Below, piece by piece: positions 31,869 through 49,537 of a stretch of DNA of 64,000 nt. Below the pieces are notes generated by a model that was not told where the DNA came from, did no database searches, and saw only the letters and a list, made by a program, of their open reading frames with translations. Origin of the DNA: an uncultured Ectothiorhodospiraceae bacterium. Lineage in GTDB: Bacteria; Pseudomonadota; Gammaproteobacteria; UBA6429; Thiohalophilaceae. The translations under genes and the position numbers were made by a program. The stretch is taken from assembly GCA_947259575.1 (NCBI GenBank), contig CAMYMU010000068.1, forward strand, positions 1-64,000, in the 5' to 3' direction. Each line of letters starts with the position of its first letter. The first letter of the stretch is position 1.

Positions 31869-33065
31869 CTAACCTTTTACACAAACGACCTGGCGTAAAG
31901 TGTGCACAACTTCAACCAGGTCATGCTGGTTTTGCATCACAACATCAATGTCCTTGTAAGCACCTGGAATTTCATCGATTACGCCCTTATCCTTACGGCA
32001 TTCAATTCCTACGGTCTGTGCCTCCAAATCGATTTCGCTGAAGTGACGCTTGGCCTTACCACGACTCATCTTCCGTCCCGCACCATGCGAACATGAGCAA
32101 AAAGATTCGGGGTTTCCCTTGCCTCGAACAATGTAGCTATTGGCACCCATACTTCCTGGAATAATTCCCAGTTCATCTTCACCGGCGCGAATCGCACCCT
32201 TACGGGTCACATAGACATTCTCACCGAAGTGATTTTCCATGGACACATAGTTGTGGTGACAGTTGATCGCTTCCTTGGTAATACCAAACTTGGGTAGCTT
32301 CTTCTTCAATGCCTCCACGATCAGACGCATCATTTCACGACGGTTTTCCATCGCGTAATCCTGCCCCCAATGGACCGCTTCTACATAGTCATCGAAGTGC
32401 TCGGCACCCTCGGTAAAGTAAGCCAGGTCTTTATCCGGCAGGCTATGGATATGACGTTCCATATCCTTCTGTGCCAGACGAATGAAGTACTGACCAATCA
32501 CATTACCTACACCACGGCTACCCGAGTGCAGCATAATCCAGACATCATCGTTCTGATCGATACATAGTTCGATGAAGTGATTACCGCCACCCAAAGTACC
32601 CAACTGGCGTACCCAGGTCTGGTATGGCTTCTTCTGCATCTTTAACACCTTAGGATGACGATCCAGGATCTTATCCAGACCAACAGACAAGGCCCGAATC
32701 GTTGAGGCCTTTGCTTTATCAGACTTGTGTAGATCAAAACCAACCGGAATCGCAGCTTCGATCGCAGTACGCACACCACGCAGGTTATCAGGCAGTTCAT
32801 CGGCCTTGATTGATAGACGTAGCGCATTCATACCACAGCCGATATCAACCCCTACCGCCGCCGGAATGATCGCACCTTTAGATGGAATCACCGATCCCAC
32901 TGTTGCACCCTTGCCATAATGCACGTCTGGCATCGCCGCTACATGACTATGGATAAAGGGCAACTGTGAAATATTCAGCAGCTGCTGGTAGGCTTCGTGC
33001 TCGATATCGTCAGTAAAAATCTTGACCGGCACCTTACCTTTTGTAATTTTCTTGATAATTGGCAT
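31869..33065 (-). CDS. rtcB: RNA ligase RtcB
   Basis: A 398-aa tRNA-splicing ligase that joins 2',3'-cyclic-phosphate or 3'-phosphate RNA ends to 5'-OH ends using GTP and Mn2+. Metal and catalytic residues are all present: D74 and C77 in VDIGCG, N162/H163 in GGGNHF, H180 in HSGSRG, H270/H271 in CHHNYV, and the guanylated His at 327 in SCSHGAGR. Length and motifs match the E. coli enzyme. It is the last gene of a leftward unit with a slipin, an unknown 320-aa protein, an HNH protein and 22 tRNA genes. No rtcA or rtcR is in the window. A role in rejoining cleaved tRNAs is inferred from family and context. Confidence 0.95.
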   Translation of the reverse strand: MPIIKKITKGKVPVKIFTDDIEHEAYQQLLNISQLPFIHSHVAAMPDVHYGKGATVGSVIPSKGAIIPAAVGVDIGCGMNALRLSIKADELPDNLRGVRTAIEAAIPVGFDLHKSDKAKASTIRALSVGLDKILDRHPKVLKMQKKPYQTWVRQLGTLGGGNHFIELCIDQNDDVWIMLHSGSRGVGNVIGQYFIRLAQKDMERHIHSLPDKDLAYFTEGAEHFDDYVEAVHWGQDYAMENRREMMRLIVEALKKKLPKFGITKEAINCHHNYVSMENHFGENVYVTRKGAIRAGEDELGIIPGSMGANSYIVRGKGNPESFCSCSHGAGRKMSRGKAKRHFSEIDLEAQTVGIECRKDKGVIDEIPGAYKDIDVVMQNQHDLVEVVHTLRQVVCVKG

Positions 33066-33123: not shown

Positions 33124-34086
33124 TTACAACTGCATGCGGAACCACGTTGGGTTCTCGACCTTCTTGTAGATACGACGGAAGTACTTGTCCTGGCTTAAAA
33201 ACTCAGGTGCATTTCCTACCTTATCAAAACAAAACTGCTTAGGCAGTTTCTGATACAAAGACTTAGGTGGCTTATCGCAATCAATTCTCTTGACACGATA
33301 ACCTGTTGTATCGGTGTGATAGTAGATAGTCTTGATACCTAATTCGGCCTTGATAAAATCAATCGTCGCAGCCAGCATCGCCTCACTCCACATCACTTGA
33401 TAAGGCTTCAGTACTTTTTCGCAGTATTCTACAACACCATCAATGTCGCCATTTACATCCCAGTAATACATACGGTCATAGCCACGTTGACGGTATAGCT
33501 TTGCATCACGTAACAGTGAAGAACCTTCACGAACCCAGTCACTCTGAATCTCTTCGATCAAGGCTTCATTAGTAGAAAAGTCCAGATCGATACGTGCCCA
33601 GGCCAGTGTCTCCCGAACATAACCTGCACCATCATTTTCGAATACAGGGTGTCCATAAAAGTTTAAAGCTCGCTTCACCTGAGGCTTGACCAAGCTGTTA
33701 TAAGCACCATCATGCTGGTTTGAGAAATTCAACTGCAATACGATGTTATAACCCTTTCGTGAAGTCTGGTTCCAGGCTGGATTTTCACCACCCCACTTAT
33801 CTAAAGTTAATACAAAGCTGTACATATCATTGAGCCAAACATCTTTCAGATCCGCCTTTGTTAGCTTGCCACTACCAATGCTAGCTAAAAATTCACGTAT
33901 CACAGGCTTTTGTAAAAGCCCAGCCATACGCGAGCCTTTAATTTGCTTGATATCCATCTCATCACCAATGAAATGATTCAGCAAAATCAACGCATACCGG
34001 TCCTTAAAGTAACGAAACAGTGTTCGCTCCTTTGGCAGGCAATCAATGATTTCTTTTACTAAGTTCTTGTCCATTATTCTCATCAT
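33124..34086 (-). CDS. Unknown protein of the rtcB/slipin unit
   Basis: A 320-aa protein I cannot assign. It is rich in aromatic and basic residues. Visible motifs are LIEEIQSDWVREG (about residue 182) and a GYDRMYYWD segment about 20 residues later, then YYHTDTTGYRVK. An EEIQSDW box followed by a GYD segment occurs in some phage and polyvalent-protein domains, but the link is only by pattern. It is not Ro60. ATG 34086 is the first start; ATG 34074 is possible. Lying between slipin and rtcB with short gaps, it probably functions in the same RNA-repair process. Confidence 0.75.
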   Translation of the reverse strand: MMRIMDKNLVKEIIDCLPKERTLFRYFKDRYALILLNHFIGDEMDIKQIKGSRMAGLLQKPVIREFLASIGSGKLTKADLKDVWLNDMYSFVLTLDKWGGENPAWNQTSRKGYNIVLQLNFSNQHDGAYNSLVKPQVKRALNFYGHPVFENDGAGYVRETLAWARIDLDFSTNEALIEEIQSDWVREGSSLLRDAKLYRQRGYDRMYYWDVNGDIDGVVEYCEKVLKPYQVMWSEAMLAATIDFIKAELGIKTIYYHTDTTGYRVKRIDCDKPPKSLYQKLPKQFCFDKVGNAPEFLSQDKYFRRIYKKVENPTWFRMQL

Positions 34087-34143: not shown

Positions 34144-35298
34144 TTAGTCTGCATTCACCTTGATGCGAACGGTATCGTTTAAAACACCATCCAGACCACC
34201 GAATACAGTCAACTTGTCGACTTTTTCAGTCACTTTTTCCAGAACTTCCAGTTCCTTCAAACGCATCAAAGTCGGGTTGTCATCCATTAAACGTGCTGTG
34301 TTCAACAGTGACCGTGTAGCCGCAGTTTCTTCACGACGTTTGATGACATTTGCCTGTGCCACTTTTTCAGCCTCAACAACCTGGTTCAGGATATCTTTCA
34401 TGTCACCCGGCAAAATGACATCTTTAACACCAACACTACGTACTTCGATTCCGAACTCTGAGACCTTTTCTTTCACTTCAGAAAAAATCACTTTATCCAA
34501 CTCATCCTTGTTACCCAACAGGGTATCCAAAGTACGTGTCCCAACCGCCTGGCGCAGCGCAAACTGCACTTCTCGGTAGACGTAGTCTGCAACGTTGACC
34601 AACTTGCTACGTGCAGCCACCGGATCAGTGATCTGGTACTGCGCTGACAAGTTCACACGCAAGCTAACTTTGTCTTTAGTCAGGATTTCCTGACCCTGTA
34701 CTTCCATCACTTGCATACGTAGCTCAACCTGTTCTACTTTTACGTTACGGTTGAACTTCCAGTAAGCGTACAATCCTGGTTTCAGGATTTGCACCATCTC
34801 ACCATCAACAATCAACAGACCAACATGGTTGTCAGCAACTTCAGCGATGTACACGTAGTTGACAACTTCTCGCGGCATGGAATCCATACGCGCATTCGCG
34901 ATCAAGCCTACTTTCGCTTTTGGTACTGCAAAGTCCTGTTCAATGTTCAGTGCTTCAACTTTTACATCCACTAGACCTTTCCAGTACAGCTGACGAGTTC
35001 CAGGTTTCAGTACACCGCTCAACTTGCCATTTTTGTATACCAGGCCAACTTCATACTCACCTAGTTCAATAAACTGGAAGTACTTATCTACCATTTCACA
35101 GTTTTCTTTCACCAATACATCGACGTATGGATGATCAAACTCTGACACTGTCAAGTTATGAACCTCAACCGCCACACGACCCAATAGGTCAAATACACGG
35201 TAGATGCCCGGTTCAAGAATCTTGACGATGCTGCGATCTTTCAAGTACACACCACGTTCATGCTGTGCAATCACAATACGTTTTATTCCGAACATCAT
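34144..35298 (-). CDS. Slipin (SPFH/band-7 protein)
   Basis: A 384-aa SPFH-superfamily protein. The N-terminal 130 residues contain two similar short repeats (R-GVYLKDRSIVKILEPGIY and VGLVYKNGKLSGVLKPGT), and a third copy follows (VGLLIVDGEMVQILKPGLY). The SPFH core (about 165-330) contains YQITDPVAARSKLVNVADYVYREVQFALRQAV and GIEVRSVGVKDVILPGDM. No clear membrane helix is present. Strong ribosome binding site AAAAGGAG. Slipins recur in bacterial RNA-repair operons with rtcB. It may form an oligomeric scaffold. Confidence 0.85.
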   Translation of the reverse strand: MMFGIKRIVIAQHERGVYLKDRSIVKILEPGIYRVFDLLGRVAVEVHNLTVSEFDHPYVDVLVKENCEMVDKYFQFIELGEYEVGLVYKNGKLSGVLKPGTRQLYWKGLVDVKVEALNIEQDFAVPKAKVGLIANARMDSMPREVVNYVYIAEVADNHVGLLIVDGEMVQILKPGLYAYWKFNRNVKVEQVELRMQVMEVQGQEILTKDKVSLRVNLSAQYQITDPVAARSKLVNVADYVYREVQFALRQAVGTRTLDTLLGNKDELDKVIFSEVKEKVSEFGIEVRSVGVKDVILPGDMKDILNQVVEAEKVAQANVIKRREETAATRSLLNTARLMDDNPTLMRLKELEVLEKVTEKVDKLTVFGGLDGVLNDTVRIKVNAD

Positions 35299-35663
35299 TA
35301 CTACTCCTTTTATGTAAATATTGAGAAATGCTCCACACGCTCATTGCGGGGTAAAACGCTGTTCTGTTGCGGGTCAAAGGTTACTCCCAAATTGTCACAA
35401 CCCTTCGCGTATCCATATGCCGACACGCTCCATGATTGCTCATACCTGTTTGTTACCTGCAACTAGCAACAGCACTTAGTTATGCCGCGGGCAATTAGCA
35501 TGCTGTAGCATCGAATACGCCTGATTCGCCACAATCCGAAGATCAAGACTTATAATTTGTTTCCAACCCACGGGAGCATTTCCCGTTGTGTGGTTTTACC
35601 CACCGTAAATGCGGATTCGAACCGCGAGGCTTTCGCCTTTTCCATCATCAGCGTTAAAGGCTG
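35299..35663 (-). other. Non-coding stretch with tRNA-like fragment
   Basis: No ORF is supported. At 35611-35626 the minus strand has a perfect T-arm (GCGG, loop TTCGAAT, CCGC), preceded at 35627-35638 by a hairpin AGGC-GAAA-GCCT. Variable arm plus T-arm is what the 3' half of a class II tRNA looks like, but I find no matching 5' half next to it. A GGGA/TCCC-type hairpin follows at about 35566-35585. The rest may be 5' leader of the slipin mRNA. It could be a degenerate tRNA or a small tRNA-like RNA. Confidence 0.4.
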
Positions 35664-35736
35664 CGAGAAGAACGGGACTTGAACCCGAAACACACTGTTT
35701 ATCAGACAGTTGCTCTACCCATTGAGCTATCTTCAC
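35664..35736 (-). tRNA. tRNA-Ile(GAU)-like, degenerate
   Basis: Cloverleaf with anticodon loop CTGATAA (U33, GAU) and stem ACTGT/ACAGT. The acceptor has 6 of 7 pairs (a T-T mismatch at position 2). The discriminator G is followed by CAG, so CCA is not encoded. It stands apart from the main array, downstream of the HNH gene, and duplicates the GAU anticodon found at 38397-38472. Confidence 0.7.
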
Positions 35737-36028
35737 TGGTGCATTTGGGCATCTATCGTTTTGTATACACCTTGCGATCCCTTCCGGTTAGCTTCAGTGC
35801 ACAGGTCAGGCATTCCGAACCTGAACCGCTAAACAAATACATGTAACCAAGCGCTTCTGAATCACGTGTTATCTCAACACGCAATCACAATTCTTTATGG
35901 TGATTTAACGTGCGACCAGCCAACTGAAAATAACCAGGCTGGCCACACGAGATACCAGGACCACCTCCTCTAACTACTGAACAAATTGTCACGTCGTTCC
36001 TTCGGTCGTTACGCACATCCATGTGCTC
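35737..36028 (-). other. Non-coding stretch between HNH gene and tRNA-Ile
   Basis: No ORF is supported. The right end (about 35998-36028) belongs to a hairpin repeat also found at 38481-38630. Elsewhere I see potential local stems, for example CAGG/CCTG around a loop near 35815, but no complete tRNA. It may be structured leader or spacer RNA. Confidence 0.35.
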
Positions 36029-36060
36029 TCACGACACTTGTACGTCCCTGTACTTCGGGC
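35996..36060 (-). repeat. Hairpin repeat, copy A (overlaps HNH 3' end)
   Basis: Two short hairpins, GCAC-atccat-GTGC (36013-36026) and GTAC-gtccct-GTAC (36040-36053), with surrounding sequence collinear with 38481-38545 in the tRNA array (shared TTCC, GGTCG, CTCTC, CGACA and GTAC-TCCCT-GTAC blocks). The second hairpin lies inside the HNH reading frame, so the last residues of that protein are encoded by the repeat. Confidence 0.6.
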
Positions 36061-36595
36061 ATTGGGCCTTCAAGAACGCCATCTGATCCGCACTAATGTG
36101 ACGGTTTCGTAAAATCAACCATTCCGCATGGTTTGGTGTATAAGGCACAGCATGAAGGCGCATATTCGTTTCGCTTAATAGCTGGTCCGCTTTACGCTGG
36201 TTACACGCACGACATGCCGTAACAACATTTGTCCAAATATTTCGACCACCACGTGAAATCGGTACAACGTGGTCACGTGTTAAGTGACGATCGCCTAAAC
36301 TAGTTAAACAATACATACAGGTATGACCATCACGTTGGAACAACTCGCGGTTGTTTAGCGTAGGTACTGTTCCAAATACCGAACGACCCTGGTCACCCTG
36401 CACAGCGATAATCGGGTGAATGTCCATATATGAGCGTGCATTACTCACACGGTTAACACCGCCGTAAAAACGCAATGTCTGGTCACCCAATGTCCATGCA
36501 ACCTGATCCTTGGCGTAATACAACACGGCATCCCGCCAATGGATCCAACTAACCGCCTGGCCACCTTGACTCAACTGTAAAATCAATGGTGTCAT
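36029..36595 (-). CDS. HNH endonuclease
   Basis: A 188-aa protein with a central HNH domain (about residues 95-150). CMYCLTSLG and CRACNQRK supply the zinc CxxC pairs, LTRDHVVPISRGGRNIWTNVVTAC is the HNH beta-beta-alpha core, and the N-terminal region is a separate domain of unknown fold. AGGAGAAGG precedes the ATG. HNH nucleases often accompany tRNA arrays in phages as homing enzymes, and related genes occur in cellular genomes. Here it lies inside the tRNA unit; a role in array mobility or RNA/DNA cleavage is inferred. Confidence 0.85.
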   Translation of the reverse strand: MTPLILQLSQGGQAVSWIHWRDAVLYYAKDQVAWTLGDQTLRFYGGVNRVSNARSYMDIHPIIAVQGDQGRSVFGTVPTLNNRELFQRDGHTCMYCLTSLGDRHLTRDHVVPISRGGRNIWTNVVTACRACNQRKADQLLSETNMRLHAVPYTPNHAEWLILRNRHISADQMAFLKAQCPKYRDVQVS

Positions 36596-36634: not shown

Positions 36635-36663
36635 GCTCTTTACTAATTTGGGAAGTGTTTAAT
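36635..36663 (+). repeat. 29-bp inverted repeat, left copy (with boxA-like start)
   Basis: This 29-bp segment matches the reverse complement of 39696-39724 at 27 of 29 positions. It starts with the boxA-like GCTCTTTA and contains a 19-bp identical core. The two copies face each other across the main tRNA array. Its junction falls immediately beside a truncated tRNA-Ser (36677-36701). Confidence 0.75.
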
Positions 36664-36676
36664 ATTGAGGAAGATT

Positions 36677-36701
36677 CTTTAAACCACTCAGCCATCTCTC
36701 C
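36677..36701 (-). pseudogene. Truncated tRNA-Ser (5' part only)
   Basis: The minus strand begins GGAGAGATGGCTGAGTGG, the typical 5' acceptor strand and D-arm of tRNA-Ser, but the similarity stops after about 25 nt. No anticodon arm or 3' half follows; instead the left 29-bp inverted repeat begins within 15 bp. The original anticodon cannot be read. The rearrangement that created the inverted repeat may have destroyed the gene. Confidence 0.6.
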
Positions 36702-36707
36702 TGTACT

Positions 36708-36793
36708 TGGTGCGCCCGGTCAGATTCGAACTGACATTCCTTAAAGGAGCCAAATTTTAAGTTTGGTGCGTTTGCCAATTACACCACGGGCGC
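36708..36793 (-). tRNA. tRNA-Leu(UAA)
   Basis: Class II tRNA; anticodon loop CTTAAAA with stem CCAAA/TTTGG, acceptor GCGCCCG/CGGGCGC, long variable arm, CCA encoded. Last tRNA of the main array. Confidence 0.92.
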
Positions 36794-36798
36794 TTTAT

Positions 36799-36874
36799 TG
36801 GTCGTGACCCCTGGATTTGAACCAGAATCTTCAAGATTATGAGTCTTGTGCTTTTCCACTTAAGCTAGATCACG
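36799..36874 (-). tRNA. tRNA with CAU anticodon (Met or Ile2)
   Basis: Anticodon loop CTCATAA, stem CAAGA/TCTTG, acceptor CGTGATC with one G-U pair, CCA encoded. It lacks the C1-A72 mismatch and GC-rich anticodon stem of an initiator. Elongator Met versus lysidine-modified Ile2 cannot be decided by eye. Confidence 0.88.
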
Positions 36875-36878
36875 TGTT

Positions 36879-36954
36879 TGGTACCGCAGGTTCGATTCGA
36901 ACAAACATCCCCATGATTTGGAGGCATGTGCTTTACCAATTAAGCTACTACGGC
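36879..36954 (-). tRNA. tRNA-Trp(CCA)
   Basis: Anticodon loop CTCCAAA within stem CATG/CATG plus one mismatched pair, acceptor GCCGTAG with G-U pairs, CCA encoded. Only 4 bp separate it from the next gene. Confidence 0.85.
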
Positions 36955-36987
36955 ATAAAGTAGGTGGCGCACAATGCGCCACCGAAG

Positions 36988-37218
36988 TTACATAATGTTT
37001 TGAGTTTGCTTTGCCATATGCAGGGCTTTTATCTGTTTACGGATATAGCGCATCATCAGCATTGCCTTTTCTTCGGCACCAAAAGTGGCAGAACTCGCAT
37101 CGTCAATCGGCACAGGAAAGTTAAACCCATCTTCCGTCTCATAGTGCAATGCACTGTCACGATAAAATACAAACCTGACTTTCTTATCGTTCGATACCAT
37201 TTCTTTAAGCGTTAACAT
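36988..37218 (-). CDS. Small hypothetical protein inside the tRNA array
   Basis: A 76-aa protein between tRNA-Gln and tRNA-Trp, with AAGGAG 7-8 bases before its ATG. Composition is ordinary and soluble (KKVRFVFYRDSALHYETEDGFNFPVPIDD then a helical C-terminus). I do not recognise it. Its placement in an intact inter-tRNA gap with a good ribosome binding site supports real translation from the tRNA transcript. Confidence 0.7.
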   Translation of the reverse strand: MLTLKEMVSNDKKVRFVFYRDSALHYETEDGFNFPVPIDDASSATFGAEEKAMLMMRYIRKQIKALHMAKQTQNIM

Positions 37219-37235
37219 GCTATCTCTCCTTTCGT

Positions 37236-37310
37236 TGGCAGGGGATCCTGGGATCGAACCAGAACTACGAACTTCAAAGGCTCGTGTGCTACCAGTTACA
37301 CCAATCCCCT
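37236..37310 (-). tRNA. tRNA-Gln(UUG)
   Basis: Anticodon loop CTTTGAA, acceptor AGGGGAT/ATCCCCT, discriminator G, CCA encoded. Confidence 0.9.
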
Positions 37311-37321
37311 AGTATAAAAAT

Positions 37322-37398
37322 TGGTGCGCCCCCTCGGAGTCGAACCGAGAAAACACTGGGTCTAAGCCAGCGGCGTATGCCAGTTCCGCCAGGGGCGC
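37322..37398 (-). tRNA. tRNA-Leu(UAG)
   Basis: Anticodon loop CTTAGAC with stem GCTGG/CCAGT, acceptor GCGCCCC/GGGGCGC, CCA encoded. UAG here is the anticodon reading CUN leucine codons, not an amber suppressor. Confidence 0.9.
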
Positions 37399-37405
37399 AA
37401 TAAAT

Positions 37406-37481
37406 TGGCGCGCCTGTGAGGAGTTCAACCTCAACCTCCCACCTTCGCACGGTGGTGCTCTTGCAATTAAGCTACAGGCAC
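37406..37481 (-). tRNA. tRNA-Arg(GCG)
   Basis: Anticodon loop GTGCGAA with stem CCACC/GGTGG, acceptor GTGCCTG/CAGGCGC, CCA encoded. T-loop reads TTGAACT, so the usual C56 is G. Confidence 0.87.
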
Positions 37482-37643
37482 TAAATTGGTCGGTCGCGAA
37501 GGATTCGAACCTTCACCTGCCTGATTAAAAGTCAGGTGTGCTACCATTACACCAGCGACCAGTTTTTCTTTCTGTTTTTCTCGTTTCTCTTTTTCCTTTC
37601 GAATACGTCGCAACAAAATGCGTTGCTTCATGCTGAGTTTCAT
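37467..37643 (-). CDS. Small lysine-rich ORF reading into tRNA-Lys
   Basis: A 58-aa frame starting at ATG 37643 behind the very strong site AAGGAGGTG. The first 29 residues are extremely basic (RKEKEKREKQKEKL). The frame then continues through the whole tRNA-Lys gene before a stop. Either a short basic peptide whose own stop was lost, or an mRNA-like spacer. It resembles the ORF at 38675-38941 in composition and position. Confidence 0.45.
   Translation of the reverse strand: MKLSMKQRILLRRIRKEKEKREKQKEKLVAGVMVAHLTFNQAGEGSNPSRPTNLVPVA
37487..37561 (-). tRNA. tRNA-Lys(UUU)
   Basis: Anticodon loop CTTTTAA with stem CCTGA/TCAGG, acceptor TGGTCGC/GCGACCG, CCA encoded. Overlapped by the reading frame of the small basic ORF at 37467-37643. 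Confidence 0.9.
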
Positions 37644-37661
37644 GGAACACCTCCTTTTTGT

Positions 37662-37736
37662 TAGCGCACCCAGTAGGATTCGAACCACATCTATTTGGTT
37701 AGAAGCAAAATGCTTTTCCAGTTAAGCTACAGGCGC
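37662..37736 (-). tRNA. tRNA-Arg(UCU), 3' end CTA
   Basis: Anticodon loop CTTCTAA; anticodon stem has one T-C mismatch. Acceptor GCGCCTG pairs with TGGGTGC, then discriminator G and CTA in place of CCA, so CCA would have to be added after trimming. Confidence 0.82.
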
Positions 37737-37750
37737 ATTGACAAGTAAAT

Positions 37751-37826
37751 TGGTGCGCTCAGCAAGACTCGAACTTGCATCACTCTGTTTCGAAGACAGA
37801 TGCTTTTCCAATTAAGCTACAAGCGC
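37751..37826 (-). tRNA. tRNA-Arg(UCG)
   Basis: Anticodon loop CTTCGAA with perfect stem TCTGT/ACAGA, acceptor GCGCTTG, canonical TTCGAGT T-loop, CCA encoded. Confidence 0.9.
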
Positions 37827-37835
37827 AGAATATTT

Positions 37836-37933
37836 TGGCGGAGAGACAGAGATTCGAACTCAGACACCTGCGCTGCAGGCCCTCTGTTTTCAAGACAGTC
37901 GCCGCTACCCAGAATCTTTAGGCTTACCTCTCC
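37836..37933 (-). tRNA. tRNA-Ser(UGA)
   Basis: Class II tRNA; anticodon loop CTTGAAA, acceptor GGAGAGG with CTCTCC, discriminator G, CCA encoded. The D-arm region is longer and more irregular than usual. Confidence 0.85.
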
Positions 37934-37938
37934 GTATT

Positions 37939-38012
37939 TGGTCGTCACCGTCAGAATCGAACTGACACATCCTGTATGTAACACAGGTGTTCTACCGTTA
38001 AACTAGGCGACA
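37939..38012 (-). tRNA. tRNA-Val(UAC)
   Basis: Anticodon loop GTTACAT with stem CCTGT/ACAGG, acceptor TGTCGCC/GGTGACG, T-loop TTCGATT, CCA encoded. Confidence 0.88.
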
Positions 38013-38021
38013 GTGAATGCT

Positions 38022-38198
38022 TCACGCATAGGGTCGAATCAACCGCAGTAAATCTTGAAGCTTGGGGTTGTTACGGTTGTCAATCCATGCATTGGCAAGC
38101 AACCACCTTAAGTTTGGTTGCGTGGGTACGGTTCTATTCGCAGGCACATTCAGCTGATCAATGAGCCGTCTGAATCGGTTTATTTCGATGTTATTCAT
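38022..38198 (-). CDS. Small hypothetical protein inside the tRNA array
   Basis: A 58-aa protein (MNNIEINRFRRLIDQLN ... RLIRPYA) between tRNA-His and tRNA-Val, with AAGGAG 6-7 bases before ATG. It ends just before tRNA-Val without overlap. Helical, basic and soluble. Family not recognised. The clean fit between two tRNAs and the good ribosome binding site support it. Confidence 0.65.
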   Translation of the reverse strand: MNNIEINRFRRLIDQLNVPANRTVPTQPNLRWLLANAWIDNRNNPKLQDLLRLIRPYA

Positions 38199-38217
38199 AA
38201 CGAACTCCTTTTGTGTT

Positions 38218-38294
38218 TGGGGCGACCGGCCGGATTTGAACCCGCATCTTCATGCTTCACAGGCATGGGCTTTACCAATTAAGCTAAGGCCACC
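38218..38294 (-). tRNA. tRNA-His(GUG)
   Basis: Anticodon loop CTGTGAA with stem CATGC/GCATG. An extra 5' G (G-1) faces C73, the histidine identity element. CCA encoded. One mismatch each in T-stem and acceptor. Confidence 0.85.
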
Positions 38295-38312
38295 ATTGAA
38301 TAAATATTAAAT

Positions 38313-38390
38313 TGGTCTGGGTGATAGGATTTGAACCTATGACATCTCCGTTCCAGGCGGAGTACTCTGGCCAGGCTGAGCTACACCCAG
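38313..38390 (-). tRNA. tRNA-Pro(UGG) with C33
   Basis: Anticodon stem CTCCG/CGGAG encloses loop CCTGGAA, so position 33 is C instead of the nearly universal U. Acceptor CTGGGTG/CACCCAG, discriminator A, CCA encoded. Confidence 0.87.
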
Positions 38391-38396
38391 TTAAGT

Positions 38397-38472
38397 TGGT
38401 ACCTCGATCTAGATTTGAACTAGAAACTTGCGATTATCGGTCGCACGTTTTACCAAATTAAACTATCAAGGC
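38397..38472 (-). tRNA. tRNA-Ile(GAU) with C33
   Basis: Anticodon stem TGCGA/TCGCA encloses loop CCGATAA, again with C at position 33. Acceptor GCCTTGA/TCGAGGT has G-U pairs; CCA encoded. Followed upstream by the hairpin repeat at 38481-38630. Confidence 0.87.
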
Positions 38473-38480
38473 ATTGGTGA

Positions 38481-38630
38481 ACCGTTCCGGTCGCTCCGGG
38501 CTTCCTGCCCTCTCGCGACATTCGTACATCCCTGTACATCGGACTCGACAATTTTGTCGGGAGCAAAATTGGCCGCGCATTGCGCGCCCGAAGGGCACAG
38601 GCCATGGATGGCCTGTGGCAACCCGCACAG
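38481..38630. repeat. Hairpin repeat, copy B (in tRNA array)
   Basis: Four successive hairpins: GGGC-ttcct-GCCC, GTAC-atccct-GTAC (38524-38537), AATTTTG-tcgggag-CAAAATT (38550-38570) and CACAGGCC-atggat-GGCCTGTG (38596-38617). The GGGAG loop flanked by an A/T-rich stem and the later GGAT loop recur downstream of tRNA-Met (50217-50283) and tRNA-Gln (62005-62074). It fills the gap between tRNA-Asp and tRNA-Ile and contains no ORF of its own. Confidence 0.65.
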
Positions 38631-38674
38631 ACTAACTTGAAGGGCTAGTTACTTTGGCCAATTTGTATACCGGT

Positions 38675-38941
38675 TCATATTTTGGCGCGCTGGAAGGGAT
38701 TCAAACCCTCATTCCCTTGATCGACAGTCAAGTGCTTTATCATTAAGCTACCAGCACCGTTGAATGGTGTTTTTAAATAACACTGAATCAATGTCATTAA
38801 AGAACACCACTCTTTTTTCAGCTTCTGTTTCTCGCCTTTGCGCTTTGCCTTATTGTTCTTTTCATGTACACCACCCTTTCGCATCAATGGATGGTTATGA
38901 AAAGGGTTACGCGCGTTAGACTTATGATTACTATTTGCCAT
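38675..38941 (-). CDS. Small basic ORF reading into tRNA-Asp
   Basis: An 88-aa frame from ATG 38941, preceded by AAGGAGAAG. The first 50 residues are Lys/Asn/His-rich (KAKRKGEKQKLKKEW). The frame then runs on through tRNA-Asp before ending. Same design as 37467-37643. Uncertain as a protein gene, but the ribosome binding site is too good to ignore. Confidence 0.45.
   Translation of the reverse strand: MANSNHKSNARNPFHNHPLMRKGGVHEKNNKAKRKGEKQKLKKEWCSLMTLIQCYLKTPFNGAGSLMIKHLTVDQGNEGLNPFQRAKI
38683..38757 (-). tRNA. tRNA-Asp(GUC)
   Basis: Anticodon loop CTGTCGA with stem CTTGA/TCAAG, acceptor GTGCTGG/CCAGCGC, discriminator G, CCA encoded. T-loop TTTGAAT has U56 in place of C56. Confidence 0.88.
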
Positions 38942-38965
38942 TTCACTTCTCCTTCGTTTAAGAAT

Positions 38966-39041
38966 TGGTGGAGCTGAGAAGATTTGCACTTCCAATTTCC
39001 TGCTTGCAACACAGGCACTCTACTAGTTGAGTTACAGCCCC
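38966..39041 (-). tRNA. tRNA-Ala(UGC)
   Basis: Anticodon loop GTTGCAA, acceptor GGGGCTG/CAGCTCC with the G3-U70 pair that specifies alanine. CCA encoded. T-loop TGCAAAT has G at position 55. Confidence 0.9.
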
Positions 39042-39050
39042 GTTAAATTT

Positions 39051-39138
39051 TGGTGGATTGCCTAGGACTCGAACCTAGATATGTCTGAGACTCCTGGTTT
39101 ACAGTCAGGTGGTGCCAGCCTATCGCACCGCGCAATCC
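39051..39138 (-). tRNA. tRNA-Tyr(GUA)
   Basis: Class II tRNA; anticodon loop CTGTAAA, acceptor GGATTGC/GCAATCC, long variable arm, canonical TTCGAGT T-loop, CCA encoded. Confidence 0.9.
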
Positions 39139-39143
39139 AAAAT

Positions 39144-39218
39144 TGGCTCCCAGGGTTGGACTCGAACCAACATACAGCTCCTTAACAGGGAGACCACCTA
39201 CCCATGGTGCATCTGGAA
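39144..39218 (-). tRNA. tRNA-Asn(GUU)
   Basis: Anticodon loop CTGTTAA with stem CTCC/GGAG, T-loop TTCGAGT, discriminator G, CCA encoded. One mismatch at the base of the acceptor stem. Confidence 0.87.
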
Positions 39219-39225
39219 TAAAAAT

Positions 39226-39301
39226 TGGTACAACGGGATGGAATTGCACCACCAACGCGCTGAGCTTCAATCAACCGCTCTACTATTTGAGCTACCGTTG
39301 T
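39226..39301 (-). tRNA. tRNA-Phe(GAA)
   Basis: Anticodon loop TTGAAGC with stem GTTGA/TCAGC, acceptor ACAACGG/CCGTTGT, CCA encoded. T-loop TGCAATT has G55; position 37 is G and 38 is C, unlike usual tRNA-Phe. Confidence 0.82.
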
Positions 39302-39463
39302 ACTTATTTGTTATACGAGCTGGCTTCCCACAACCAGCACCCGAGAGGTTTCCCCCGTGACTTTTCTTTACTTACCCTTGTGCTGTTAGACAGATTTGAT
39401 TAACACCACAACAGGCTAAAAGCCCAACCAAGTGCTGTCACACTTTCGTATAACAAATAAAGT

Positions 39464-39540
39464 TGGAGCTGATGGCATGGACTTGCACCTGCATCTTGTC
39501 GCTTACAAGGCGACAGCTTTACTAATTAAGCTACATCAGC
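39464..39540 (-). tRNA. tRNA-Thr(UGU)
   Basis: Anticodon loop CTTGTAA with perfect stem GTCGC/GCGAC, acceptor GCTGATG/CATCAGC, CCA encoded. The T-arm is irregular (TGC in place of TTC). A gap of 162 bp without a gene precedes tRNA-Phe. Confidence 0.86.
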
Positions 39541-39549
39541 AACATAAAT

Positions 39550-39623
39550 TGGAGCGGGTACAGAGATTCAAACTCTGACCAAGAGGTTGGAGGCCTCGCA
39601 TGCTATCGTTACACCACACCCGC
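39550..39623 (-). tRNA. tRNA-Gly(UCC) with C33
   Basis: First tRNA of the array. Anticodon stem CGAGG/CCTCT encloses loop CCTCCAA, with C33. Acceptor GCGGGTG with CCCGC, discriminator T, CCA encoded. T-loop TTTGAAT has U56. Confidence 0.86.
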
Positions 39624-39695: not shown

Positions 39696-39724
39696 ATTAA
39701 ACACTTCCCAAATTGTTAAAGAGC
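39696..39724 (-). repeat. 29-bp inverted repeat, right copy; boxA of the tRNA array
   Basis: On the minus strand it starts GCTCTTTAACAATTT, an rRNA-type boxA, placing antitermination machinery at the head of the tRNA array. The whole 29 bp recurs inverted at 36635-36663 with 2 mismatches. Confidence 0.75.
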
Positions 39725-39791
39725 ACGCCACTACCAGAACATTGCTGGTGGGCAAAAACATCGAGGTAGTAAACCGTCATGGTTTGCATAA

Positions 39792-39825
39792 AAAAACCCC
39801 GTTAAGCTAATGCCTAACGGGGTTC
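39792..39825 (-). terminator. Rho-independent terminator
   Basis: On the minus strand AACCCCGTTAGGC...AACGGGGTT forms a strong stem followed by TTTTTTT. It ends the transcript of the small gene at 39888-40076. The tRNA array must therefore have its own promoter between here and the boxA at 39724, although I cannot pick a convincing one by eye. Confidence 0.88.
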
Positions 39826-39887
39826 CTGTGGTTCCCGCGGAAGGCATCAATATTCATCAGCCTTCCGCAATATATTGTTACGAAAAG

Positions 39888-40076
39888 CTAGGTCATACCG
39901 AGTTCACTCGCATATGATTTATTCTGTTCATTGGTTATTGATAAATGCTGCACATCAGCATTCACCGACAATCTGATCTCAATTGTGCGCATATAGATAG
40001 ACGGACAGATGCCGCCGTTCCCGCGCAGACCGGGTTGCTCTGGTAAATAACTAATTGTGTGTTGTGTTGCTTGCAT
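39888..40076 (-). CDS. Small protein divergent from the XRE regulator
   Basis: A 62-aa protein with GGAGA 5 bases before ATG, a promoter (TTGCTT, 16 bp, TATACT at 40101-40128) and a terminator at 39792-39825, so it is a complete transcription unit. No known family. Its place divergent from a phage-type repressor resembles cro-like or antirepressor positions, but the sequence shows no helix-turn-helix. Confidence 0.5.
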   Translation of the reverse strand: MQATQHTISYLPEQPGLRGNGGICPSIYMRTIEIRLSVNADVQHLSITNEQNKSYASELGMT

Positions 40077-40100
40077 TTATGTCTCCAATAATTTGCGCAA

Positions 40101-40149
40101 AGTATAATTTAATATTTCAAGAAAGCAAGAAATATTTTCAAGTTTCTTG
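40101..40149. promoter_or_regulatory. Divergent promoter/operator of the XRE regulator
   Basis: Minus-strand promoter TTGCTT (40123-40128), 16 bp, TATACT (40101-40106). It is covered by an 8-bp inverted repeat AATATTTC/GAAATATT (40111-40118 and 40129-40136) and a second pair CAAGAAA/TTTCTTG (40118-40124 and 40143-40149). A plus promoter TTCTTG-16-TAATAC may serve the XRE gene. The layout suggests autoregulation by the XRE protein. Confidence 0.55.
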
Positions 40150-40237
40150 TATCATTAACTAACGCTAATACTTCAACGAATGAAGGGCAGCAATTAGGTT
40201 AAGAAACCTCTAAATAAATATTTCAGGAGCCACTGCC

Positions 40238-40837
40238 ATGGCAGACAGAAAGAACCCCACCGCTGTGCAGATAGGACAGCGCATAAAGCAAGCCCGTAAA
40301 ATGGCAGGCTTTGATACCGCAGCGCAATTATTAGCACGAATCCCCGAGTGGGGAACAGGTCGACTTGGAAACTATGAAGCAGGCATCTCTGTACCCTCCC
40401 CAGATGATGTCAAAATCATATCAAAGGTCACCGACTCATCCCCCTGCTGGATCATGTTTGGCCTGGGACCCATCCGCGCCACTGGTCGTGATATCCAGGC
40501 CATTCGCCATCAAAATTTTGTTTATATCTTCGAAAATACAAAAGCACATCGAGGAGGCATTACAAAGTTCTTGAAGGGCATTGGCCTGTCACGCAAGAAA
40601 GTCGATGAACACATCAACAACCCCTTTCAGACTATCCCTGATCGCACTGCCCGCAAGTGTGAGAAGTTTGCAAAAAAATCCTTAGGCTGGCTAGATGAAC
40701 AACACGTGGAATCAGATCCGGTGTGTGCCGCTTTCCCAGAAGATATGCGTGAAGTCATGGAGATATTTTCTGGTTTAGATAATGGTAAACGTGAGATGTT
40801 TTTAAAAATGGCAAGAATTTTTGATACATCCGTATGA
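40238..40837 (+). CDS. XRE-family phage-type repressor-like regulator
   Basis: A 199-aa protein with an N-terminal helix-turn-helix (about residues 10-68; IGQRIKQARKMAGFDTAAQLLARI ... GRLGNYEAG). A middle region and C-terminus show no LexA-type protease signature. Ribosome binding site CAGGAG 8 bases upstream. Divergent from a 62-aa gene with an operator between them. It probably controls its own promoter; control over the tRNA array is possible but unproven. Confidence 0.75.
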   Translation: MADRKNPTAVQIGQRIKQARKMAGFDTAAQLLARIPEWGTGRLGNYEAGISVPSPDDVKIISKVTDSSPCWIMFGLGPIRATGRDIQAIRHQNFVYIFENTKAHRGGITKFLKGIGLSRKKVDEHINNPFQTIPDRTARKCEKFAKKSLGWLDEQHVESDPVCAAFPEDMREVMEIFSGLDNGKREMFLKMARIFDTSV

Positions 40838-45691: not shown

Positions 45692-46357
45692 ATGTATCAA
45701 TATGAACACCCACATCCAGCGCTCACCACGGACGTCGTGATTTTCACGATTCGTGATAAGCAATTGAAATTGTTGCTGATTATGCGTGCTGGTGAGCCCT
45801 ATAAGGGTAAATGGGCCTTGCCAGGTGGCTTTGTGCAGCAGGATGAGGATCTGGAGGCCGGTGCACGCCGGGAGCTGGCGGAGGAAACCGGAATTGCCGG
45901 TGTGTACCTGGAGCAGCTTTATACCTTTGGCGCTGTCGATCGGGATCCCCGCGAGCGGGTGATTACAGTGGCCTACTATGCCCTGATCCCCTCCGACAAG
46001 ATTGTGCTGCAGGCCGCCACTGATGCCGAGGCGGTGGGCTGGTTCAGCCTGGATGAGTTGCCCGAGCTGGCGTTTGATCACCAGGGGATCGTCGACATGG
46101 CCCATGAACGTTTAGTGGCGAAGCTTGATTACTCGACGATTGCCTTTCAGTTTATGCCGGAAGAATTCACCTTAAGTGAATTGCAGGATGTGTATGAAAT
46201 TATTCTGCGTGAAGAGATGGACCGCCGTAATTTTCGCAAGTGGGTGCTGGCACTGGAACAGATTGAAGAGACCGGTGAAGAACGACGTGAGGGGGCACAC
46301 CGCCCCGCCAAACTTTATCGGGTTATCCACCCCGGCAAGGTTGAGATCATTAAGTAA
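45692..46357 (+). CDS. nrtR: NrtR-type Nudix transcriptional regulator
   Basis: A 221-aa protein with an N-terminal Nudix domain (about residues 10-140) and a C-terminal winged helix (about 155-215). The C-terminal segment FTLSELQDVYEIIL ... DRRNFRKWVL ... HRPAKLYR is the NrtR signature. The Nudix box is nearly intact (GGFVQQDEDLEAGARRELAEETGI), so hydrolase activity is possible. NrtR proteins repress NAD-synthesis genes and are released by ADP-ribose. Here it heads an operon with a NadA-like and an NAD-kinase-like gene, consistent with that role. Confidence 0.88.
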   Translation: MYQYEHPHPALTTDVVIFTIRDKQLKLLLIMRAGEPYKGKWALPGGFVQQDEDLEAGARRELAEETGIAGVYLEQLYTFGAVDRDPRERVITVAYYALIPSDKIVLQAATDAEAVGWFSLDELPELAFDHQGIVDMAHERLVAKLDYSTIAFQFMPEEFTLSELQDVYEIILREEMDRRNFRKWVLALEQIEETGEERREGAHRPAKLYRVIHPGKVEIIK

Positions 46358-46367
46358 GGAGGTCGCG

Positions 46368-47297
46368 ATGAATACACTGACATTAGCACACTACTACACC
46401 ACGCCGGATGTACAGGCGATGGCCGATTATGTGGGAGACAGTCTTGAGCTAGCATTGATCGCCCAGCGTGAACAGACGGATCGCATTGTCTTTGCCGGTG
46501 TTCAGTTCATGGCGGAGACCACCAAGATGTTGAATCCTGCGGCACAGGTGATTTTGCCAGATGAAAGGGCTACCTGTTCGTTGGTGACACAAACCGATAT
46601 CGAGGCACTGAAACAGTGGCGCGAAAAATATCACGACCATGTACACGTGAGCTATATCAACTCCAGCGCTGTACATAAGACTTTATCGGACTGGATAGTA
46701 ACCTCGCGCAATGTCGATGACATTATTGCGAGTATTTATGCCGAAGGTAAGCAGGTGATCTTTTCGCCGGACCGCAACATGGGTGCCTATTTGAATTATC
46801 AATATGGTTACAACATGCCGGTGTGGGACGCCGTATGTGAAGTACACGATAAATTCAAGGACGAACAAATCCAATACATGATCGAGCATGCGAAAGCGGA
46901 TGGTGATGTGTATTTACTCGCGCACCCCGAATCACCGTTACCGGTATTAAAACGGGCCGACGTGGTGGGTTCGACCAAACAAATGCTGGATTGGGTAAAT
47001 AAATTTAATGGTGATATTCGCTCTACCATTTATATCGCTACTGAAGAAGGCTTGTTGCACAACATGCGTACATTGCGGCCTGAGCTGAATTTACAACAGG
47101 CACCGATTTATAGTGGCTGCCAGTGTAACGCCTGCCCTTACATGAAACGTAACACGGTTGATCTGGTTAAGCGTGCAAAGCAAGGCGAAGGTTTTGAAAT
47201 AGATTATTTAGATGATGACATTATTGAAAAGGCCAAGGCACCGATTGAAAGGATGCTTGAATTCAGTAAACAACAAATGGAAAAAACAGCGGCCTGA
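46368..47297 (+). CDS. NadA-like quinolinate synthase, one Fe-S cysteine replaced
   Basis: A 309-aa protein from ATG 46368 (strong AAGGAGGTCGCG). It follows quinolinate synthase throughout: AHYYTTPDVQAMADYVGDSLELA, FAGVQFMAE, LPDERATCSL (C70), HPES, GSTKQML and CQCNACPYMK (C251, C253, C256). NadA enzymes bind a 4Fe-4S cluster with three Cys, the second in HPEC; here that residue is Ser189. It may be inactive, use another ligand, or have a new substrate. No nadB or nadC is adjacent. Stop is 93 bp before the SPFH gene. Confidence 0.82.
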   Translation: MNTLTLAHYYTTPDVQAMADYVGDSLELALIAQREQTDRIVFAGVQFMAETTKMLNPAAQVILPDERATCSLVTQTDIEALKQWREKYHDHVHVSYINSSAVHKTLSDWIVTSRNVDDIIASIYAEGKQVIFSPDRNMGAYLNYQYGYNMPVWDAVCEVHDKFKDEQIQYMIEHAKADGDVYLLAHPESPLPVLKRADVVGSTKQMLDWVNKFNGDIRSTIYIATEEGLLHNMRTLRPELNLQQAPIYSGCQCNACPYMKRNTVDLVKRAKQGEGFEIDYLDDDIIEKAKAPIERMLEFSKQQMEKTAA

Positions 47298-47331
47298 TTT
47301 AATTAAAGCAACGAAAGGAGGTACGCCAACA

Positions 47332-47346
47332 TGAAACCGACATAAC
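47332..47346 (+). other. Four-codon leader ORF
   Basis: A near-perfect ribosome binding site (AAAGGAGGT) precedes ATGAAACCGACATAA, which encodes only MKPT. The SPFH gene starts 44 bases later with its own site. It could be a leader peptide affecting translation of the downstream genes, or the remnant of a gene start. Confidence 0.4.
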
Positions 47347-47390
47347 TTTATTAAACAAATATGAGCTTGATGCTCAGTAGGAGAATTATC

Positions 47391-48584
47391 ATGACAGATA
47401 TAAAAAGAACATTATTTTTGAAACACCTGCGCAGCGAATCGAATATGCACATTCGCCGCTTCCGAAAAGGCCGCCTGGTTAAATCCGGCAAGGGACTCGC
47501 CTTCTGGTTTATACCTATGGGTACCAGTATCGCGGAAGTGCCAACAGATGATCGTGAGTTGCAGTTTATATTTCAAGGTCGGTCACGCGATTTTCAGGAA
47601 GCGACTATCCAGGGTGAACTTATTTATCGGGTCACCGATCCGGATTGCCTGGCCGATCGTATCGACTTCTCGATTGATCTTAACTCGGGTTTACACCGTA
47701 ACGCACCATTGGAGCAGCTTGCATCTTTATTTACCAACACTGTACAAAAGCATGCAACCCGTTACATTGCGAGCAAGGATATAAGACAGCTCATTGTTGA
47801 TGGACCGGAAAATATCCTCAATGCGATTGAACAGGGTTTTGCCGCTGAGAATGTGTTTGCCGAGATGGGGCTGGAAATTGTCAGTCTTGGTATCAATGAG
47901 ATTAGCCCGGTTGCTGAGTTGGAAAAAGCGCTACAGATCCCGACAAGGGAAAGCATCCAGCAAAATGCAGATGAGGCGACTTTTCAGCGACGTGCACTGG
48001 CGGTCGAAAAAGAACGGGCCATCGCAGAGAATGAGTTGCAGAGCCAGATCGAGCTGGCAACCCGCGAAGAAAACCTTATCTCACAACAAGGTAAGAATGA
48101 ACGACGCCGTGTTGAAGAAGAGGCGACCGCTGAAGAAACGTCGGTTAAAGCACGCATTGAACGTGAACGCATCCAGTCTGAGGCTATCGCACTACAAGCC
48201 AAGCTGGAGGCTGAATCTGAAAGTGAACGTCAACGCATTATTTCACAATCTGATAGTGAAGCTCAGCGTCTTGCCGCGGATACCTCGGCACAAAACCGTC
48301 GCACACTGGGTGCAGCGGAAGCCGAAACAATACGCCTGGAAGGTAACGCCGAGGCGGAGAAAGTGGAAGCGATTGGTCTGGCAGAAGCTGCGGGCGAGAA
48401 AGAGCGTATGTCGGTCTATGAGACATTGCCTGCCAATGTTGTATTTGCGTTAGCCTTGCAGGAGTTTGCAGGTAAGCTGGATAAGATTGAACACTTAAAC
48501 ATTACACCGGATGTGTTAAGTACTAATCTTGCCGACTTGTTTGCAGCTGGTGCGCAAAAGATTCAGAGCCTGGGAGGTGAATGA
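47391..48584 (+). CDS. Soluble SPFH/band-7 protein
   Basis: A 397-aa protein from ATG 47391 (TAGGAGAATTATC); an upstream in-frame ATG at 47361 has no site. An SPFH domain (about residues 15-190, with IQGELIYRVTDPDCL and FAEMGLEIVSLGINEISP) is followed by a long charged coiled coil (about 200-345) typical of flotillins and a C-terminal helical tail. There is no transmembrane helix. Its stop overlaps the next gene. It is the second SPFH protein of the region, distinct from the slipin at 34144. Confidence 0.85.
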   Translation: MTDIKRTLFLKHLRSESNMHIRRFRKGRLVKSGKGLAFWFIPMGTSIAEVPTDDRELQFIFQGRSRDFQEATIQGELIYRVTDPDCLADRIDFSIDLNSGLHRNAPLEQLASLFTNTVQKHATRYIASKDIRQLIVDGPENILNAIEQGFAAENVFAEMGLEIVSLGINEISPVAELEKALQIPTRESIQQNADEATFQRRALAVEKERAIAENELQSQIELATREENLISQQGKNERRRVEEEATAEETSVKARIERERIQSEAIALQAKLEAESESERQRIISQSDSEAQRLAADTSAQNRRTLGAAEAETIRLEGNAEAEKVEAIGLAEAAGEKERMSVYETLPANVVFALALQEFAGKLDKIEHLNITPDVLSTNLADLFAAGAQKIQSLGGE

Positions 48585-49534
48585 TGAATACCTTAATCCC
48601 ACGGGTTGTTGTGATCACACGCGAGACCGAATACGAGTTGTTACTCGCACGCCACGCAACCCGTGGCCAGGCTGAATTCTTTTTGCGCGAACGTGGTCAG
48701 TCGATCGAGCAGGTAGAACAACGCCATAAACATCATCAAGCGGCGTTGCAAAAGGTTATCGCGGCTATCCCAACTGACTGGCGGCGTAACCAGGTTAAAC
48801 GGCAAGAACTTGATCGGTTTTTGTTTGAGCCCGAAGACCTGGTGATCGCCGTTGGTCAGGATGGTTTAGTCGCGAATACAGCCAAGTACCTGAATGGTCA
48901 AAACGTGATTGGGGTTAATCCCGACAAAGACTTATACGATGGCATTCTGGTGCCATTCTCAAGTGATGAGGCCAGTGCCATCATGGTTGCGGCCATGTAT
49001 AACGATATTGATGTTCAATACCGAACTATGGCGCAGGTGGATCTTGATGATGGTCAGAGCTTATTTGCACTGAATGAATTGTTCATTGGTCACCATAGTC
49101 ACCAGTCTGCACGTTATTCAATTAGCACTGAAGGTAGTAAGGAACATCATTCATCGTCAGGGGTTATTATAGCGACCGGCACGGGTGCAACGGGTTGGGC
49201 GCGATCGATTCATCGTGAACGGCATGATAAGTTGCAGTTGCCCTCCCCTGAAGATGAAAAGCTGGCATTTTATGTGCGCGAAGCCTTCCCCAGCATTGCC
49301 ACTGGCACCAGTCTCACTTCTGGGTTGATCGTTAAGGGACAGTCGTTAGAGATTCGTTCAGAACTGAATGAGGGGGGAGTTATTTTTGGGGATGGTATCG
49401 AAGCCGACTACTTATCCTTTAACTGGGGTATGCGTGCTATCTTTAGCGTTGCACAAAATAAATTATCCATGGTGCAACCGGCAAGCATAACCATTTCAGG
49501 AAGAGAAACACAACAAGCGAGGTTAGCGAGTTAG
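48581..49534 (+). CDS. NAD kinase-like protein
   Basis: A 317-aa protein of the NAD-kinase/diacylglycerol-kinase superfamily. The GGDGT box appears as VGQDGLV (D94 retained), followed by NPD, ALNELFIGH (the NE/D box) and GTGATGWARS (equivalent to the TPTGSTAY segment). The first Gly of GGDG is replaced and the N-terminal 75 residues are unusual (HATRGQAEFFLRERGQ), so this is a divergent branch. GGGAGGTG precedes ATG and it overlaps the SPFH gene by four bases. Substrate, NAD or an ADP-ribose-like molecule, is uncertain. Confidence 0.75.
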   Translation: MMNTLIPRVVVITRETEYELLLARHATRGQAEFFLRERGQSIEQVEQRHKHHQAALQKVIAAIPTDWRRNQVKRQELDRFLFEPEDLVIAVGQDGLVANTAKYLNGQNVIGVNPDKDLYDGILVPFSSDEASAIMVAAMYNDIDVQYRTMAQVDLDDGQSLFALNELFIGHHSHQSARYSISTEGSKEHHSSSGVIIATGTGATGWARSIHRERHDKLQLPSPEDEKLAFYVREAFPSIATGTSLTSGLIVKGQSLEIRSELNEGGVIFGDGIEADYLSFNWGMRAIFSVAQNKLSMVQPASITISGRETQQARLAS

Positions 49535-49537
49535 AGT

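Follow-up and report, generated by a model that had tools for sequence, protein, structure and literature searches.

Within a 64,000-nucleotide stretch of DNA from an uncultured Ectothiorhodospiraceae bacterium (GenBank assembly GCA_947259575.1, contig CAMYMU010000068.1, positions 1 to 64,000; hereafter the window), 21 tRNA genes are packed into 2.9 kb, about 7 per kb, all on the minus strand. The array belongs to a module with the following order: a divergent gene for a putative XRE-type repressor, promoter, short leader open reading frame (ORF), terminator, boxA, tRNA array, HNH endonuclease gene, a leader RNA with an embedded tRNA, slipin gene and RtcB RNA ligase gene (Table 1). ARAGORN reports 19 of the tRNAs. 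Rfam adds Thr(UGU) at 39467-39540, and Ser(UGA) at 37836-37933 was recognised by sequence, its orthologue in the array of a related genome (G027) being 94% identical. The cluster exceeds the thresholds used for tRNA array units (at least 15 tRNA genes and at least 2 per kb; PMC6409571), and its members are not recent copies of host tRNAs, as they are only 60-74% identical to the host tRNAs for the same amino acid. The lack of Trp and Tyr tRNAs in the host outside the array was not counted as evidence, the assembly being in 70 contigs with several tRNA genes absent from it, and sister arrays being without them too.

Table 1. Features of the module and the array in the window, with the evidence for each
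Feature	Position	Strand	Evidence
XRE/helix-turn-helix-type transcriptional regulator, divergent from array	40238..40837	+	weak HTH_3 match, phage-repressor PHROG matches
Putative promoter/operator, TTGCTT-16-TATACT with overlapping CAAGAAACTTG / CTTG dyads	40100..40150	-	conserved in G027, G015, G008
Leader ORF, 62 codons, ending ...SYASELGMT*	39888..40076	-	position conserved
Predicted four-segment attenuator: segment 1 at leader stop, P1 hairpin (2:3), intrinsic terminator AACCCCGTTA..TAACGGGGTTTTTTT	39785..39890	-	complementarity, folding
boxA-like GCTCTTTAACAATTTGG	39708..39724	-	identical in G027, G015, G008
5' arm of long-range stem enclosing array, 29 nt	39696..39724	-	93% complementary to 36635-36663
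tRNA array: Gly UCC, Thr UGU, Phe GAA, Asn GUU, Tyr GUA, Ala UGC, Asp GUC, Ile GAU, Pro UGG, His GUG, Val UAC, Ser UGA, Arg UCG, Arg UCU, Lys UUU, Arg GCG, Leu UAG, Gln UUG, Trp CCA, Met CAU, Leu UAA	36708..39623	-	ARAGORN, Rfam, sequence
Element X, structured RNA of about 157 nt closed by 15-bp perfect inverted repeat	39304..39460	-	inverted-repeat analysis
tRNA-Glu(UUC), split by two palindromic inserts (T arm; T-arm/acceptor junction)	38475..38677	-	sequence
Small ORF in array	38022..38198	-	67% identical in G027
Small ORF in array (phrog_20427)	36988..37218	-	PHROG match; 89% identical in G030
5' fragment of Ser-type tRNA (GGAGAGATGGCTGAGTGG)	36684..36701	-	sequence
3' arm of long-range stem	36635..36663	-	complementarity, covariation
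Array-linked HNH endonuclease, paralogue of widespread chromosomal HNH	36029..36595	-	Pfam HNH_5
Conserved structured leader RNA of slipin operon	35325..35990	-	8-locus alignment, 15 pairs changed on both sides
tRNA-Ile(GAU)-like gene embedded in slipin leader	35663..35736	-	ARAGORN, Rfam
Slipin (SPFH/Band 7)	34144..35298	-	Pfam
Conserved protein of unknown family, beside RtcB or slipin in several operons	33124..34086	-	operon comparison
RtcB RNA ligase	31869..33065	-	Pfam RtcB 1.8e-131

A first-pass annotation of the window had listed the anticodons of the array and described them as a nearly minimal decoding set. Every anticodon on that list is correct, all eight four-codon boxes are served by a tRNA with U in the wobble position (U34), and 18 amino acids are covered. 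Redundancy is lower than expected by chance: the probability of at least 20 of 21 species falling in the minimal class is 1e-6 to 1e-7 for 21 species drawn from a pool of 39-44, pool sizes that are assumed typical values. Of the three species listed as missing (Cys, Glu and the Ser tRNA for AGY codons), Cys is indeed absent; Glu is present but split, with a counterpart at the matching place in G027 (also split) and G008, and a 5' fragment of a Ser-type tRNA remains where G027 has an intact Ser(GCU). The single CAU tRNA has a C1-G72 pair and a non-GGG/CCC anticodon stem and hence is not an initiator, so that the array also lacks initiator Met and, in addition, elongator Met or Ile2 or both. Judging from their stems, the array tRNAs are under structural constraint. 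A comparison with orthologues from G027 and G030, identified by plain BLAST, covered 327 stem pairs, of which 276 are unchanged, 32 have changed on both sides and still pair, 14 show one-sided changes and 5 are broken. Identity to the corresponding tRNAs of these two arrays is mostly 73-96%, with Pro and Lys at only 58-63%.

With the HNH protein encoded next to the array as query, we recovered sister arrays from G030, G027, G015 and G008, all in the same gammaproteobacterial family, and from a Thiotrichales bin (L023); interrupted tRNAs in these were assigned by script and by eye. The G027 array is orthologous to that of the window and has tRNAs for nearly every amino acid, among them Cys(GCA), Ser(GCU) and a split Glu. 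Coverage is about 14 amino acids in G008 and about 7 in G015, and the L023 array has four Leu isoacceptors, Cys and Gly(GCC). Recurrence of a fixed minimal set from which Cys and Glu are always absent, which the first-pass annotation had asked about, is therefore not supported. Random or strongly redundant sets in related arrays had been named as the observation that would count against selection for such a set; this is borne out in part, in that the related sets vary or are redundant. The window set itself is economical and non-random. An apparent tRNA-Pyl(CUA) in G030 was considered as an amber suppressor and set aside, since its anticodon arm, when reread, gives Ser(GCU) with one mismatch, and no recoding is claimed. 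At L022 (7896-8000), the 5' half of a tRNA-Gly lies directly upstream of the HNH gene and the rest of the array is gone, an apparent array deletion.

The relatives of the HNH protein at 84/75/65/65% identity are the array-linked ones. Slipin occurs in 6 of 40 sampled genomes of the family, namely the five with an array-type HNH and G006. It lies directly downstream in all five of the former (G000, G030, G027, G015 and G008) and is found in 1 of the 35 others. RtcB follows slipin in G000, G030 and G027 and is linked in G030, G027, G006 and others, with G006 carrying slipin-RtcB without an array. Across a sample of the class, slipin was found in 20 of 369 genomes, with RtcB adjoining in many. 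Because the genes upstream beyond the regulator are not shared, nor, outside the genus, is the gene past RtcB, the module behaves as a unit. Array and downstream genes share one strand, no T6-type terminator was found between the attenuator and slipin in four arrays, and the module may be read as a single transcript. The structured leader RNA upstream of slipin matched no Rfam family except tRNA; in most operons ARAGORN places a tRNA-like sequence, often with an anomalous anticodon, some hundreds of nt ahead of the slipin gene.

The region between regulator and array is conserved in layout. Orthologues of the XRE regulator at the matching place are 73-76% identical in G027, G015 and G008, and 46-47% identical in G006 and G386, whose operons are without a long array. 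The promoter/operator, whose dyad and -10 region are conserved, was missed by a consensus scan and is therefore putative. Short ORFs stand at the position of the leader ORF in 12 operons, with the stop codon 52-78 nt before the terminator. The leader peptides of G015 and G008 are similar, with differences in excess at third codon positions, which gives some sign of coding. A leader designed to hold all 20 amino acids was considered and rejected, as the roughly 16-20 kinds seen in the window, G027, G015, G008, G006 and G386 are those of a random peptide of 50-60 residues.

Between the leader stop and the array, four segments can pair in mutually exclusive ways. The order of short ORF and then terminator is the same in 12 slipin operons, and in 10 of these the P1 hairpin can be dissected. 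Across the 10 loci, segment 1 is complementary to the 5' arm of P1 (Fisher p 2e-12 against shuffles) and the 3' side of P1 to the 5' half and loop of the terminator (Fisher p 5e-9), and a reduced set of seven loci gives 1e-9 (1:2) and 3e-7 (3:4); these values overstate independence, since array and operon loci are partly related, and the shuffles kept base composition only. Energy prediction up to the decision point, before the terminator 3' arm, gives 1:2 plus 3:4 in most loci, and masking the first 29 nt gives P1 plus the terminator. Some differences are compensated, TGATGCCT:AGGCATTA in the window, for example, being AGATGCCT:AGGCATCT in G027. The layout was found again in loci fetched later (G416, G417, G413 and G236, the last before RtcB and without slipin), and the same search saw none in G409, L180, L182, L184 and L186. 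Antiterminator and terminator pairings are thus mutually exclusive, and the leader is best read as an attenuator that would be read through when ribosomes fail to finish the leader ORF. Such a switch did not turn up in the literature searched.

The boxA-like sequence downstream of the terminator also occurs in G386 and G205. In four genomes, the boxA region can pair, across 2.2-4.6 kb, with the sequence immediately ahead of the HNH gene. The energies are -30 to -42 kcal/mol against averages of -16 to -19 for shuffles, one of which nearly reached the weakest value, that of G008. The paired sequences change in concert between the two genome pairs. A stem enclosing the array in this manner resembles the processing stalk of rRNA precursors.

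From its context, we consider it likely that the array supplies the replacement tRNAs of an RNA-repair or translation-stress operon, and that it is probably a tRNA reserve for emergencies and not a kit for taking over translation. The divergent XRE protein probably controls the promoter as a repressor. When the leader ORF is finished, ribosomes would cover segment 1, P1 (2:3) and the terminator would form, and the operon would be off. If translation is blocked or slowed by tRNA cleavage, antibiotics or uncharged tRNAs, segment 1 would pair with segment 2 and segment 3 with the 5' half of the terminator, and RNA polymerase would continue. The boxA-like signal, as in rRNA leaders, would then carry the polymerase across the untranslated tRNA region. 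The operon would yield fresh tRNAs, presumably used in decoding, together with HNH, slipin and RtcB ligase, so that, when tRNAs are damaged or translation stalls, the array would act as the 'replace' half and RtcB as the 'repair' half of the response. Extended to a class of gammaproteobacterial RtcB operons, in which the attenuator would respond to ribosome progress in general and not to one amino acid, and in which tRNA arrays and embedded tRNA-like RNAs would be 'replace' modules beside RtcB 'repair', the proposal is one that we favour by a small degree.

Several known systems share parts of this arrangement. In Anabaena, TrcR represses a 26-tRNA array, the HNH gene all8564, the slipin gene alr0740 and the RtcB gene all3526, and translation inhibitors derepress them; these genes are co-regulated but not reported as one operon (PMC10272220). 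The likeness to the trn operon and TrcR regulon of Anabaena PCC 7120 is thus that of a tRNA array, HNH, slipin and RtcB under common control, which in the window is proposed. There, however, the array is on a plasmid, rtcB is chromosomal and the repressor is a ribbon-helix-helix protein with a TGTAGTAT-like site, whereas the window has contiguous genes, an XRE/helix-turn-helix-type regulator and an attenuator. In Salmonella, rtcBA is induced by damaged tRNAs (PMC7790460). Both the TrcR regulon and Salmonella rtcBA lend independent support to the replace-and-repair interpretation. RtcB(A) operons with RtcR and Ro60/Y RNAs (PMC7790460) resemble the module in joining the RtcB ligase to a tRNA-like non-coding RNA. 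Unlike them, the module has slipin, a tRNA array and an attenuator, and Pfam tests of neighbouring genes showed no RtcA, RtcR or Ro60 (RtcA and RtcR were looked for there and nowhere else in the genome).

The tRNA array units of Mycobacterium, phages, plasmids and an integrative and conjugative element of Acidithiobacillus are likewise dense clusters with HNH genes, host-unlike tRNAs and near-complete isotypes, but the window array sits in a chromosomal RtcB-slipin operon, is preceded by a putative repressor gene and an attenuator with a leader ORF, and has a boxA and a stem that encloses it. Attenuators of the trp type share the leader ORF, the mutually exclusive 1:2, 2:3 and 3:4 pairings and the intrinsic terminator. 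They differ in that the leaders of the present operons have 31-62 codons without an obvious run of a single codon, and therefore would sense translation in general, and in that what they would control is tRNAs and RNA repair. The purpose of bacterial tRNA arrays is unsettled, with codon supply, anti-defence and phage remnants all proposed. If the present interpretation is true, tRNA arrays would be cellular damage-response devices, and tying an array to RNA repair and a ribosome-progress leader predicts when it is expressed and against what it protects. It would also offer a candidate switch for a group of RtcB operons without an RtcR regulator nearby, in parallel with the independently discovered TrcR regulon.

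A number of observations weigh against a stress-induced reserve. A full reserve is not needed in every case, as most isoacceptors are absent from the G015 and G008 arrays. No RtcB was found next to the array of G015, and the G008 contig stops short of where it would be seen. Palindromic inserts in the T arm may keep several array tRNAs from maturing, and a weak terminator-like hairpin lies within the array (36963-36983). To these must be added the partial relatedness of the loci and the simple shuffles noted above, and the fact that the attenuator folds are energy predictions.

The array could instead be anti-defence cargo of a mobile element or phage, its tRNAs helping the phage or element to survive host anticodon nucleases and its proximity to RtcB being secondary. 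Clusters of tRNA genes with HNH genes are common in phages, plasmids and prophages (PMC6409571, PMC5966550, PMC12803027), and phage tRNAs can evade tRNA-cutting defences (PMC10264068, PMC11555353). The small ORF at 36988-37218 has relatives in the jumbo phages XacN1, CBB, GAP32 and BF, lying among tRNA genes in CBB, and Ser(UGA) resembles Vibrio phage tRNAs; in a search of phage DNA, only about 100-130 bp around it matched. The giant RNA GOLLD (RF02032), which has no match in the window, occurs with a tRNA inside it in the sister arrays of G027 (L106 10126-10611) and G015 (L107 9877-10360). On the other hand, no phage structural, integrase or conjugation gene was present among the flanking proteins tested, as a phage or prophage would require, the array had no match in plasmids, and the chromosomal module with its cellular RNA-repair operon recurs in several genera. 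Among viral contigs, two distant loci had the HNH without tRNAs, and none with the small ORF was found. We regard this explanation as unlikely for the module as it stands, and a phage origin of the array as anti-defence cargo as possible.

A decaying selfish cluster, driven by its HNH gene and hitch-hiking beside the repair operon with no present role, would account for the split Glu, the Ser fragment, the variable content and the lone tRNA-Gly half before the HNH gene at L022, and HNH endonucleases have been suggested to spread tRNA clusters (PMC6409571). The strong constraint on the stems of the intact tRNAs, together with the conserved attenuator and boxA and the covarying enclosing stem, makes this improbable. 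The proposal of the first-pass annotation, that a complete toolkit was selected to take over host translation, draws on the economical U34 set for 18 amino acids, but no initiator-type tRNA was found in the window array and the sister arrays are redundant or far from complete, so that we give it very little credence.

Other elements lie within the array. Element X has similar segments in G027, G015 and G008 but no Rfam match and is possibly a new non-coding RNA. The array Leu(UAG) (37322-37398) is without the long variable arm of bacterial tRNA-Leu, as it is in all arrays of the family. Both in the window (38475-38677) and in the L106, L107, L108 and L109 arrays, some tRNA genes are interrupted by small palindromic elements, which lie mostly in the T arm. 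The interrupted tRNAs are Glu in the window; Lys, Trp, Leu and Glu in G027; Glu and Arg in G030; Asn and Pro in G015; and Pro, Leu and Glu in G008. Related copies of the element occur elsewhere in the genome, one of them at the end of the HNH gene (36026-36058).

Among the neighbouring genes, the 320-residue protein of unknown family gave an AlphaFold model with a predicted local distance difference test score (pLDDT) of 68, and its Foldseek matches were mostly GNAT-like, none being significant (best E 0.09). PADLOC returned generic HNH matches only. Genes for NadA, an SPFH protein, an unknown protein and a DUF4291 protein lie near the module (46176-50146), and in G015 (L107 145-5759) genes for NADAR, ADP-ribosylglycohydrolase, an NrtR-type NUDIX protein, NadA and an SPFH protein adjoin slipin. 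A basic peptide of about 50 residues with the motif HDHPLM(R/K)KGGVH..S is found repeatedly in array and operon leaders (for example, L132; L106 9300-9450), both in the arrays and in the operon of G006, which has no array.

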